From Apostichopus japonicus (lineage: Eukaryota; Echinodermata; Holothuroidea; Aspidochirotida; Stichopodidae), in contig NC_092576.1 of NCBI RefSeq assembly GCF_037975245.1, positions 45,872,111 to 45,936,110 on the forward strand: a DNA stretch of 64,000 nt, given 5' to 3'. How positions within the stretch are numbered: the first letter of the stretch is position 1; each line of letters begins with the position of its first letter. A model generated the notes under the pieces. It was not told the origin of the DNA. It worked only from the letters and a program-made list of their open reading frames with translations, and did no database searches. A program made the translations under genes and the position numbers. Shown in pieces: positions 31,912-63,869 of this stretch.

Positions 31912-33215
31912 TCTGTAAAGAAGTCAGCTGATTCTAGTCTAGCTTGTAATATCTCCTCCACATTATAGTATTACTGTTGACATTGGCCAGTCATCATACA
32001 TCTGTGGAGAAGTCAGCTGATTCTAGTCTAGCTTGTAATATCTCCTCCATATTATAGTATTACTGTTGACATTGGGCCAGTCATCATAGATCTGTGAAGA
32101 AGTCAGCTGATGCTAGTCTAGCTTGTAATATCTCCTCCATATTATAGTATTACTGTTGACATTGGCCAGTCATCATAGATCTGTGGAGAAGTCAGCTGAT
32201 TCTAGTCTAGCTTGTAATATCTCCTCCATATTATAGTATTACTGTTGACATTGGGCCAGTCATCATAGATCTGTGAAGAAGTCAGCTGATTCTAGTCTAG
32301 CTTGTAATATCTCCTCCATATTATAGTATTACTGTTGACATTGGCCAGTCATCATAGATCTGTGGAGAAGTCAGCTGATTCTAGTCTAGCTTGTAATATC
32401 TCCTCCATATTATAGTATTACTGTTGACATTGGCCAGTCATCATAGATCTGTGGAGAAGTCAGCTGATTCTAGTCTAGCTTGTAATATCTCCTCCATATT
32501 ATAGTATTACTGTTGACATTGGCCAGTCATCATACATCTGTGGAGAAGTCAGCTGATTCTAGTCTAGCTTGTAATATCTCCTCCATATTATAGTATTACT
32601 GTTGACATTGGCCAGTCATCATAGATCTGTGGAGAATTCAGCTGATTCTAGTCCAGCTTGTAATATCTCCTCCATAGTATAGTATTACTGTTGACATTGG
32701 CCAGTCATCATAGATCTGTGAAGAAGTCGGCTGATTCTAGTCCAGCTTGTAATATCTCCTCCATATTATAGTATTACTGTTGACATTGGCCAGTCATCAT
32801 AGATCTGTGGAGAAGTCAGCTGATTCTAGTCTAGCTTGTAATATCTCCTCCATATTATAGTATTACTGTTGACATTGGGCCAGTCATCATAGATCTGTGG
32901 AGAAGTCAGCTGATTCTAGTCTAGCTTGTAATATCTCCTCCATATTATAGTATTACTGTTGACATTGGCCAGTCATCATAGAGCTGTGGAGAATTCAGCT
33001 GATGCTAGTCTAGCTTGTAATATCTCCTCCATATTATAGTATTACTGTTGACATTGGGCCAGTCATCATAGATCTGTGAAGAAGTCAGCTGATTCTAGTC
33101 TAGCTTGTAATATCTCCTCCATATTATAGTATTACTGTTGACATTTGCCAGTCATCATAGATCTGTGGAGAAGTCAGCTGATTCTAGTCTAGCTTGTAAT
33201 ATCTCCTCCATATTA
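31912..33215 (-). repeat. 90-bp minisatellite copying the PLCL C-terminal codons and stop
   Basis: About 15 units of 90-91 bp. Read on the minus strand each unit contains ATGGAGGAGATATTACAAGC, then TAGACTAGAATCAGCTGACT and TCTTCACAGATCTATGATGA. The copy at the gene-proximal end (about 33155-33215) is the real end of the PLCL coding sequence ([16 protein letters not shown], stop TGA). The other units therefore lie in the 3' untranslated or downstream region and repeat the coding end, stop codon and following sequence. Units differ by one or a few bases (GGCC or GGGCC, TGTGGAG or TGTGAAG), indicating recent expansion. Confidence 0.92.
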
Positions 33216-63200: not shown

Positions 63201-63869
63201 TTGGCACTTACTAGCTGTACATACTGACAAGTGTGTGAGGTCTTACCATTGTATAAACTATTGGCACTTACTAGCCGTACATACTGACAAGTGTGTGAGG
63301 TCTTACCATTGTATAAACTATTGGTACTTAATAGCTGTACATACTGACAAGTGTGTGAGGTCTTACCATTGTATAAACTATTGGCACTTAATAGTTGTAT
63401 ATACTGACAAGTGTGTGAGGTCTTACCATTGTATAAACAATTGGCACTTACTAGCCGTACATACTGACAAGTGTGTGAGATTTTACCATTGTATAAACTA
63501 TTGGCACTTACTAGCTGTACATACTGACAAGTGTGTGAGGTCTTACCATTGTATAAACTATTGGCACTTACTAGCCGTACATACTGACAAGTGTGTGAGG
63601 TCTTACCATTGTATAAACTATTGGCACTTACTAGCCGTACATACTGACAAGTGTGTGAGGTCTTACCATTGTATAAACTATTGGCACTTACTAGCCGTAC
63701 ATACTGACAAGTGTGTGAGGTCTTACCATTGTATAAACTATTGGTACTTACTAGCTGTACATACTGACAAGTGTGTTTCCTTACCATTGTGAGAAACTGT
63801 TTTAGTTCTTTCTTCTGCACAATCAGCAGGGATGCCAAATATTTCCATTGAAATGTATGGATCTATGAC
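33155..63869 (-). CDS. PLCL: PLCL (PRIP), inactive phospholipase C-like protein; C-terminal nine exons, 5' end outside window
   Basis: The exons, 5' to 3' on the minus strand, are 63869-63785, 62902-62756, 52493-52396, 44455-44354, 43839-43591, 42204-42145 (or from 42227), 34929-34873, 34506-34411 and 33541-33155. PLCL proteins have the PLC-delta domain order but no lipase activity. They bind IP3, protein phosphatase 1 and GABA-A receptor partners at membranes and in cytosol. Visible here is a C2 domain ([75 protein letters not shown]). The PLCL-specific C-terminal helical region follows ([55 protein letters not shown]) and then an acidic tail. The IPADCAEE and [14 protein letters not shown] strings separate it from PLC-delta. 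GT-AG ends and phases agree except at exon 42145-42204. The PH, EF-hand and X/Y regions must lie beyond 64000. Orthology to vertebrate PLCL1 versus PLCL2 is not resolved. Confidence 0.93.
33542..34272 (-). repeat. 52-bp minisatellite carrying copies of the last exon's 3' splice site
   Basis: About 14 units. On the minus strand each reads TTTATTTTGTACTAG followed by GTTTATGATGCTGGTACTGC, then TTTCATTATATACTGTC. The first two parts match the acceptor and first 20 coding bases of the final PLCL exon (which begins at 33541). A shorter variant lacking the TAAACC segment (TCATTTAGTAC on the plus strand) occurs about four times at regular spacing. It occupies most of the last intron. Confidence 0.93.
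34300..34392. repeat. Short AT-rich repeat
   Basis: About nine copies of an ATTAATATGC / ATTCATATGC decamer-like unit, just before the donor side of the exon at 34411-34506. Confidence 0.8.
34940..36318. repeat. 45-bp minisatellite in PLCL intron, about 30 copies
   Basis: The unit on the plus strand is ATAATACCTCAGGCATCTAG, then AAATAAACACACATCTATGT and ATGTA. Because 45 is a multiple of three and the unit has open frames, frames of nearly 400 codons exist on both strands (15-residue repeats); these are artefacts. The array begins about 10 bases upstream of the exon at 34873-34929. Its proximal, more divergent units form part of the acceptor region. On the minus strand each typical unit has a 3' splice-site-like TTTATTTCTAG followed nine bases later by GAGGTATTA, a 5' splice-site-like string. 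Confidence 0.95.
37328..38535 (+). pseudogene. Degraded pogo/Tigger-type DDE transposase
   Basis: The N-terminal helix-turn-helix starts at ATG 37328 ([38 protein letters not shown]). The catalytic domain shows a broken first-Asp motif ([18 protein letters not shown] near 37880), then [68 protein letters not shown] (second catalytic Asp, about 38160-38220) and [14 protein letters not shown] (about 38263-38305). It ends with [20 protein letters not shown] and [12 protein letters not shown]. Functional relatives cut and paste the element at TA. At least two in-frame stops (near 37634 and 38243) and frame shifts near 37740, 37880 and 38110 show that it is inactive. Confidence 0.88.
38536..39120 (+). 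pseudogene. Transposase C-terminal linker, frame-shifted
   Basis: This connects the DDE domain to the repeat region. Open plus-strand pieces contain a three-copy TGGAACCAACACATC phrase (about 38749-38785) and a basic segment [20 protein letters not shown] followed by [18 protein letters not shown], likely a nuclear-localisation-type tail. I recognise no catalytic motif. Confidence 0.5.
39125..40445 (+). repeat. 84-bp coding-frame minisatellite inside the pogo element
   Basis: About 15-16 units of 84 bp. In the transposase C-terminal frame each encodes 28 residues of the type [20 protein letters not shown] followed by ATKQPHRG. The frame is unbroken for six or seven units (to about 39660), then shifts by a short deletion, and stops occur near 40056 and 40308. 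The SSDSSSDEE block is a typical acidic casein kinase 2-type sequence. Minus-strand frames across the same stretch are shadows. Confidence 0.9.
40453..41370. mobile_element. One-ended DNA transposon relic starting GGGTCATTCCATG
   Basis: The sequence changes sharply inside a repeat unit at 40453 to GGGTCATTCCATGTCAAATC, the same terminal phrase as the 4.1 kb transposon at 20809. The interior is AT-rich without a coding frame. I cannot find the matching inverted end (expected GATTTGACATGGAATGACCC) before 41.4 kb, so only one terminus is supported and the right border is approximate. It is probably a non-autonomous or truncated member of a related family. Confidence 0.5.
41405..41664. mobile_element. 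Palindromic MITE-like element inside the pogo transposon
   Basis: The left arm has GGTTGAATT, TTAGAAGAC, AATGAATTTCAACCAGTAC, then ATGTATGTACAGTGTGTAC. The right arm is its reverse complement with an extra TTTACTATAA. The arms of about 100 bp flank a core of about 60 bp (GTGCCATGAGTGCCAGAATA), so the whole can fold as a long hairpin. The CYS/TYR-rich open frames on both strands are palindrome shadows. No clear target duplication is seen. Confidence 0.7.
42405..43480. repeat. 42-bp minisatellite in PLCL intron, about 25 copies
   Basis: The unit is TAGAATGAACAACCACATGT followed by AAGCTATTCACCATACTGTA and TA. Variants (AACTACATGACAGC, GTACGC, GTCAGATATT) recur in the same order about 360 bp apart, showing block duplication. 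It lies between the exons at 42145 and 43591. Confidence 0.93.
43885..44335 (-). repeat. 108-bp tandem repeat containing decayed copies of an adjacent PLCL exon
   Basis: Four units. The plus-strand segment GACTCATCAATTCCTTTCAT, then CCCAGCTGTCTCAACCT, aligns with the exon at 44354-44455 (GTCTCGTCAATTCCTTTCAC, then CCCCACCTGTCTCATCCT) at about 32 of 38 positions by hand. This covers the last codons, up to the donor site. Read in the gene's frame the copies have lost one base and contain TGA in some units, so they are not alternative exons. The rest of each unit is intronic. Confidence 0.85.
44500..52350. repeat. 7.8 kb minisatellite, 75-bp unit, about 104 copies
   Basis: The unit is AACATGTCAATAATATGATA, TCTGTCAAGTAGCTCACACA, TCACTCTACCTGCACAATAT, AACTACTCTACATAG. 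Main variants are CTCATCACT or ACATCATT, AATAGTATG, TCAATTATATG, CTCTGCATAG and GCCAATAATATGTTATC. A block of 17 units was duplicated (see findings). A divergent last unit (about 52310-52370) merges into the donor side of the exon at 52396, so the array grew from that intron edge. On the minus strand each unit carries TGTGCAGGTAGAG, close to a 5' splice site. It nearly fills the intron. Confidence 0.96.
52510..62755 (-). repeat. 10.2 kb minisatellite, 61-bp unit, copying a PLCL exon end and donor site
   Basis: About 165 units. On the minus strand the unit reads AATGTCTACAACCAG then GTATGCTTAGTACTGCAGTG, then AAGCAAACAAACACACATAC and TGTATT. The real exon at 62756-62902 ends in the same AATGTCTACAACCAG with intron GTATGCTTAATACTGCAGTA, so each unit repeats about 15 exonic bases plus the 5' splice site. 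Frequent variants are GTCTAGAACCAGGTGTGC, GGAATGC, and a 57-bp form lacking one TTTG. Variant order repeats over blocks of 25 or more units. It ends directly at the real donor. Confidence 0.96.
63005..63784 (-). repeat. 60-bp minisatellite carrying the donor site of the adjacent PLCL exon
   Basis: About 13 units. On the minus strand each reads AGTTTATACAATGGTAAGAC, then CTCACACACTTGTCAGTATG, then TACAGCTAGTAAGTGCCAAT. The exon at 63785-63869 ends AGTTTCTCACAATG followed by GTAAGGAAACACACTTGTCA, so the unit repeats the exon-intron border. Each unit also has a second GTAAGT. Because 60 is a multiple of three, frames of about 270 codons run through it on both strands. These are artefacts, though the minus-strand one continues into the real exon. 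Confidence 0.95.

Follow-up and report, generated by a model that had tools for sequence, protein, structure and literature searches.

Why should the introns of one gene be filled with tandem repeats whose units contain pieces of the adjoining exons? The question is raised by a 64,000-bp window of the genome of the sea cucumber Apostichopus japonicus (C16:45872111-45936110; 671.58 Mb, 35 contigs), in which a gene for a phosphoinositide-specific phospholipase C (PI-PLC) carries minisatellite arrays that copy exon ends together with their splice sites or the stop codon. A preliminary description of this DNA proposed a recurring process at exon–intron borders. The analysis presented here points instead to ordinary local tandem duplication in short introns: the arrays are probably 'mirage' minisatellites, a repeat kind known from amphioxus, formed in this way, and with limited power and a small sample they show no sign of attraction to exon borders.

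Exon edges repeated in the arrays

The gene lies on the minus strand (33155-63869). Its nine exons in the window (E1 to E9, Table 1) all follow the GT-AG rule and, in agreement with the gene structure first proposed, join around the arrays into one open frame, which has no internal stop and ends at the TGA at 33155. Ten further exons were read upstream, just outside the window, bringing the total to 19 exons and 18 introns.

In the window part of the gene, Tandem Repeats Finder (TRF) reports arrays with units of 60, 61, 75, 108, 43, 84, 45, 10, 52 and 89 bp, together with minor arrays (12-41 bp). The ten main units, as distinct from the minor ones, were aligned to all nine exons, using exon sequence alone and 200 shuffles per unit. 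The 61-, 52-, 89- and 108-bp units each exceeded 200 of 200 shuffles. The 61-bp unit contains the last 15 bp of E2, with a weaker match extending to 30 bp, and the donor CAG/GTATGC (a slash marks the exon–intron border), while the 52-bp unit carries the E9 acceptor (TACTAG) with the 20-23 bp of exon that follow it. The 89-bp unit at the stop codon, initially described as 90 bp long, includes the final ~71 bp of coding sequence with its stop, followed by 3' flank. Two further units are less clear: the 108-bp unit repeats ~43 bp from the end of E4 with lowered identity, together with intron sequence and with the copied donor destroyed, and the 60-bp unit has an exact exonic match of six bases (ACAATG, the end of E1) plus the donor and does not rise above shuffles on exon sequence alone. 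The claim that four intronic arrays and the stop-codon array copy an exon edge thus holds for the 61-, 52- and 89-bp arrays, is weak for the 60-bp array and applies to the 108-bp array without its donor. Two arrays read upstream (114 and 135 bp) bring to seven the number in this gene that reach an exon edge or the stop, including two with a weak or diverged match. A unit that spans an exon–intron boundary, as in mirages, is found in the 61-, 52-, 114- and 135-bp arrays, weakly in the 60-bp array and in diverged form in the 108-bp array.

Five of the ten aligned arrays (75, 45, 84, 43 and 10 bp) copy no overlapping exon edge, and among them the 75-bp array, the second largest, is a counter-example. 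The 10-bp unit matches none of the nine exons (200 shuffles). The 43-bp unit weakly matches the region of the E6 acceptor, at a score that none of 1000 shuffles equalled. The expected alignment of units to exon borders was therefore obtained for the 61-, 52-, 108- and 89-bp units and not for the 75-, 45-, 84- and 10-bp units. The 84-bp array is itself a coding-like repeat, and mobile-element-like open frames surround it in intron 6 (37325-40658).

A single spreading or introner-like repeat family was also considered as the source and was rejected, the units of different introns being mostly unrelated, as the preliminary description had noted. Among 325 pairs formed by 26 units, five scored above the maximum of 300 shuffled pairs, and the highest-scoring pair came from two overlapping arrays of one intron.

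Table 1. Exons and tandem arrays of the PI-PLC gene; positions are those of the window
Feature	Position	Strand	Basis or remark
Exon E1 (C2 domain)	63785..63869	-	GT-AG, open frame across joins; C2 match in spliced protein
Exon E2 (C2 domain)	62756..62902	-	GT-AG model
Exon E3	52396..52493	-	GT-AG model
Exon E4	44354..44455	-	GT-AG model
Exon E5	43591..43839	-	GT-AG model
Exon E6	42145..42234	-	Acceptor picked to preserve frame; scores lowest of 18 acceptors
Exon E7	34873..34929	-	GT-AG model
Exon E8	34411..34506	-	GT-AG model
Exon E9, last coding, stop TGA	33155..33541	-	GT-AG model
60-bp array x12.7	63013..63776	-	TRF, alignment; units repeat ACAATG/GTAAGA
61-bp array x169 (10.2 kb)	52525..62770	-	TRF, alignment; fills intron 2
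75-bp array x104 (7.8 kb)	44510..52336	-	Intron 3; no exon edge copied
108-bp array x4.2	43874..44329	-	TRF, alignment
43-bp array x24	42429..43469	-	TRF, alignment; intron 5, ~195 bp from E6
84-bp array x15.6	39135..40444	-	Within 7.2-kb intron 6; no exon edge
45-bp array x30	34938..36313	-	Stops 8 bp short of E7; no exon edge copied
52-bp array x14.7	33522..34273	-	TRF, alignment
89-bp array x14.7	31909..33216	-	TRF, alignment; at stop codon
114-bp array x74			Just outside window, upstream; last 38 bp of exon X4 + donor
135-bp array x3			Just outside window, upstream; acceptor + first 94 bp of exon Y3

Intron length and the frequency of edge overlap

The 19 exons enclose 18 introns, 16 of which contain arrays with a period of at least 20 bp. 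When each array is collapsed to one unit, 13 of these 16 introns measure 77-358 bp and the other three 618, 1732 and 4587 bp; the units in the 13 short introns are 31-159 bp long. With introns as short as this, a duplication landing anywhere within them often takes in an exon edge. In the null model, the single unit left after collapsing was placed at random over its intron. Intronic arrays with a period of at least 20 bp and at least 1.9 copies were counted, an overlap of at least 6 bp with an edge being scored from TRF coordinates; the resulting set of 26 arrays is exclusive of the stop-codon array, periods below 20 bp and arrays beyond the introns read, and for the 52-bp array the TRF row of period 256 was swapped for that of period 52. 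Four of the 26 arrays overlap an edge, against 8.2 expected (P(>=4) 0.99, P(<=4) 0.03). Counting the weak matches of the 108-, 60- and 43-bp units gives 6-7 of 26 (P(>=6) 0.91, P(>=7) 0.80, with expectations from rounded placement probabilities), and seven other thresholds give 3-4 overlaps against 6.6-8.8 expected.

The same comparison was made in a survey of 51 merged segments, which total 184,315 bases, surround kinesin, PLC-X and kinase exons and were kept separate from the loci of the same PLC gene (L040, L048, L055), from L001-L004 and L089 and from 15 point samples. Here, 4 of 60 arrays overlap the known exon core, with 4.7 expected, the exon edges being the ends of hidden Markov model (HMM) matches rather than exact splice sites and the exons of the segments only partly known. 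Among arrays with at least 2.5 copies, the overlap is 2 of 34 (2.4 expected). Overlapping pairs of survey loci agree in 19 of 19 cases.

These counts bear directly on the proposal that the duplications are seeded by a recurring border-specific process, for instance by breaks at exon ends linked to splicing or to R-loops. Such a process would fit the accumulation of seven arrays, two weak or diverged, at an exon edge or stop of one gene, the presence of edge arrays in other genes and the two overlaps, against 1.0 expected, among survey arrays with at least four copies. Overlap is nevertheless at or below random placement both in the PLC gene and across the whole survey, and a border-specific origin appears improbable. 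What survives of the original idea is independent local duplication followed by expansion; a tie of the process to exon–intron borders is not supported. The preliminary description had itself named chance-level overlap across the genome as evidence against its proposal, and chance-level overlap is what this small sample gives.

Edge arrays in other genes and the repeat-rich setting

The survey overlaps come from several genes. A second PLC gene, located mid-chromosome on C11, contains a 147 bp x6 array that repeats GTGTAGAAA/GTAAGT. On C16, at 12.36 Mb, a kinesin gene has one duplication on the acceptor side and one on the donor side (168 and 113 bp), each in about two copies. A kinase exon on C23, ~0.5 Mb from a contig end, is accompanied by a 31 bp x16 array with units around CCT/GTAAGT. 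Compared with the exon core, three of the four overlapping units exceed 300 shuffles, and the C23 unit merely equals their maximum. Edge arrays are thus confined neither to the PLC gene nor to the region near a chromosome end.

Contig C16 (46,036,110 bases) terminates in telomeric repeat, which places the window 100-164 kb from the chromosome end, and the PLC locus belongs to a block rich in repeats at 70-164 kb from the telomere. Tandem repeats make up 54% of the window and 79-88% of the next 30 kb, against 6.8% in 30 kinesin loci and 8.9% in the merged survey. The 15 two-kb point samples range from 0 to 53%, nine of them holding none (periods >=15 only), and a 2-kb sample ~70 kb inward of the window contains 2.7%. 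Repeat richness is therefore best described as a local block; a gradient towards the telomere is not proven.

Very long arrays are difficult to assemble, and misassembly could in principle have created the arrays or their copy numbers. In six arrays examined, however, the units differ by 0.8-4.8% on average and show recurrent variants, and the A. japonicus assembly paper reports HiFi reads (PMC10344927); an artefact is hardly credible.

Decoy splice sites

The preliminary description anticipated well over a hundred decoy splice sites, and these are present. The 169 units of the 61-bp array, true donor included, carry GT in 152 cases, GA in 16 and AT in one, so that 151 of the 168 decoys proper retain GT; pattern matching adds 12 donors in the 60-bp array and 10 acceptors in the 52-bp array. 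The 114-bp array has the exact 15-base donor context in 73 of its 74 units, true site included, and a single mismatch in the remaining one. AG/GT is thus kept in many units, as in mirages, with the 108-bp array as the exception.

Use of a decoy would lead to an early stop in 251 of 251 tested cases: 157/157 at E2 (pattern AACCAGG, GT not required), 72/72 at X4, 12/12 at E1 and 10/10 at E9. The two decoys at Y3 alone stay in frame. Given an intact frame and decoys that would almost all truncate the protein, the simplest interpretation is that the site next to the exon is chosen, and splicing is presumably faithful to it.

The decoys were also scored with a splice matrix built from the gene's own 18 donors and 18 acceptors, array founders included, with a cut-off taken from leave-one-out scores, which favours copies. 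In the arrays, 172 donor-like sites equal or exceed the median true donor, and the 61-, 60- and 114-bp arrays account for 170 of these; shuffled units give a mean of 14 and a maximum of 83 (20 repeats). The 135 acceptor-like sites exceed the shuffled mean of 49, but they lie below the shuffled maximum of 172 and are not unusual.

In the 61-bp array, the median true site is equalled or exceeded by 85 donor-like and 66 acceptor-like sites, and the unit context ATGTCTACAACCAG/GTATGC resembles both kinds of the gene's own sites. This dual look would suit decoys that act, the AG/GT units serving either for recursive splicing or as sinks by which the splicing speed of a 10-kb intron is tuned. A long pyrimidine tract is, however, missing from the acceptor half, the dual look derives from the end of E2 itself, the multi-kilobase 75- and 71-bp arrays hold almost no such sites and the scoring is based on 18 sites of each type, all of which makes a role of the decoys very unlikely. 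Its most specific form, a ladder of more than 100 recursive splice points by which the 10-kb intron is removed stepwise, is extremely unlikely; if true, such a mirage array would supply its own means of removal from an intron that grew from a tiny one.

Exon growth or intron gain under way, with some of the copied edges serving as exon, would apply above all to the in-frame 135-bp array at Y3, where the frame is open, the acceptors are intact and the copies match 100% (TRF). Some of the extra residues would, however, be encoded by a pyrimidine tract, and the addition would duplicate a portion of a conserved PLC-Y segment; the decoys of the four other arrays tested give early stops, and we consider this explanation decidedly improbable. 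The three near-identical 135-bp copies at Y3 (C16, L002 7456-7861), each comprising an acceptor and most of the exon, make possible an isoform longer by 45 or 90 residues.

How the arrays may have formed

Local tandem duplication in short introns needs no function of the decoys. A duplication would land in a short intron, often taking in an exon edge, and unequal exchange, gene conversion or slippage may then have multiplied the founding duplicate into dozens or hundreds of copies, probably inside the repeat-rich block close to the chromosome end. One end copy runs without a break into the real exon, which is why that exon stays intact. The splicing machinery would use the exon-proximal site and pass over the copies farther into the intron, even where these are equal to it or nearly so.

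Several observations weigh against this explanation. Survey arrays with at least four copies overlap the exon core in 2 of 13 cases (1.0 expected, P 0.26). The null model ignores selection, assumes one event per array and relies on TRF coordinates, and a mild border preference masked by selection against exon hits could still lie beneath the counts. Some decoys have decayed: the 108-bp array has lost its donor, and 17 of the 169 units of the 61-bp array are without GT. The 9-base donor core of the 61-bp array diverges by 6.0%, compared with 3.2% in the rest of the unit. This divergence consists mainly of the variant GTATGC/GTGTGC, the donor core of the 114-bp array diverges by 0%, and core divergence is a weak test for purging of decoys because the arrays are homogenised. 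A 2-kb sample ~35 kb from the telomere contains no array, which speaks against a simple telomere gradient.

The encoded protein and other features

The 19 joined exons encode 802 residues with PLC-X, PLC-Y and C2 domains; the long C-terminal tail has no Pfam match. Among PDB sequences, the only ones compared, the best match is PLC-delta1 (1.2e-139), and the motifs SSHNT, ELDCWDG, YHG and LENHC, which we take to hold the catalytic residues, are all kept in the alignment to it. PLCL proteins, the catalytically inactive relatives of PLC, have lost some of these residues. The label 'PLCL' first given to the gene is thereby rejected, and its product is predicted to be a PLC-delta-like PI-PLC with intact catalytic motifs. 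The subfamily assignment is provisional because the N-terminal PH/EF-hand part lies beyond the exons read.

Elsewhere in the window, two large arrays lie outside the PLC gene (47 bp x53 at 12889-15370; 64 bp x60 at 26339-30153). An exon on the plus strand (15646-15996), presumably of a GID8-like gene, is preceded by a 45-bp x3 array that stops 8 bp before it and, by TRF coordinates, copies no edge. Open frames on the minus strand (7217-8711) have the look of a reverse transcriptase, presumably of the long interspersed nuclear element (LINE) type judging by their motifs. Comparison at the protein level with plasmid sequences produced no match.

On the 16-kb contig C35, COX1 gives a normal protein under the echinoderm/flatworm mitochondrial code, and translation table 4 places K and R at positions where N and S are expected. 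Fragmented COX1-like pieces occur at two places in C29:14745-31219, perhaps a rearranged or nuclear mitochondrial copy.

Relation to known repeats and significance

In amphioxus, mirage minisatellites are described for the globins BflGb6 and BflGb9 (PMC3087553), for troponin C and PGBD5 (PMC3902484) and, via citing work, for Adh3 (units of 10-72 bp; Canestro et al. 2002). The units measure 150-160 bp in BflGb6, with six or three copies (PMC3087553), and 60 and 108 bp in PGBD5 (PMC3902484). As far as these sources describe them, the amphioxus and A. japonicus arrays agree in that units span the 5' or 3' exon–intron border, many keep AG/GT and several genes per genome are affected. They differ in scale, with up to 169 and 74 copies, arrays of up to 10 kb and seven edge arrays in one gene in A. 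japonicus. In amphioxus, reverse transcription PCR (RT-PCR) was taken to show undisturbed splicing, and it was suggested that introns may be gained by way of mirages (PMC3087553, PMC3902484); regular splicing thus has RT-PCR support there, whereas in the sea cucumber it is suggested indirectly by the intact frame. Length instability between haplotypes or somatic cells is a further trait of mirages; the present analysis covered one haplotype.

The Rogers model of intron gain via tandem duplication of AGGT-containing segments (cited in PMC3087553) likewise involves local duplication that copies splice signals; in the present case, however, existing introns have expanded and no new intron is shown. 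The internal tandem repeats of human segmental duplications, as described in PMC2812944, have on average 30-bp units in four copies and lie in coding sequence in half of the cases. They too are minisatellites, some of them at exon–intron borders, that alter gene structure, but the arrays described here are far longer and mostly intronic.

No report of splice-site minisatellites in an echinoderm was found in the literature searched, which mostly did not extend to subscription papers. The A. japonicus arrays are a large new echinoderm case of a known, little-studied repeat kind of amphioxus. They extend mirages from lancelets to a sea cucumber, with copy numbers far above the 3-6 reported for an amphioxus globin gene, and show that a striking border association can arise from short introns alone. 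They also constitute a natural experiment on splice-site choice: in one intron, a single true donor stands against ~150 GT-bearing copies, and in a second intron the true donor stands against ~73 near-identical copies, nearly all of which would be destructive if used.

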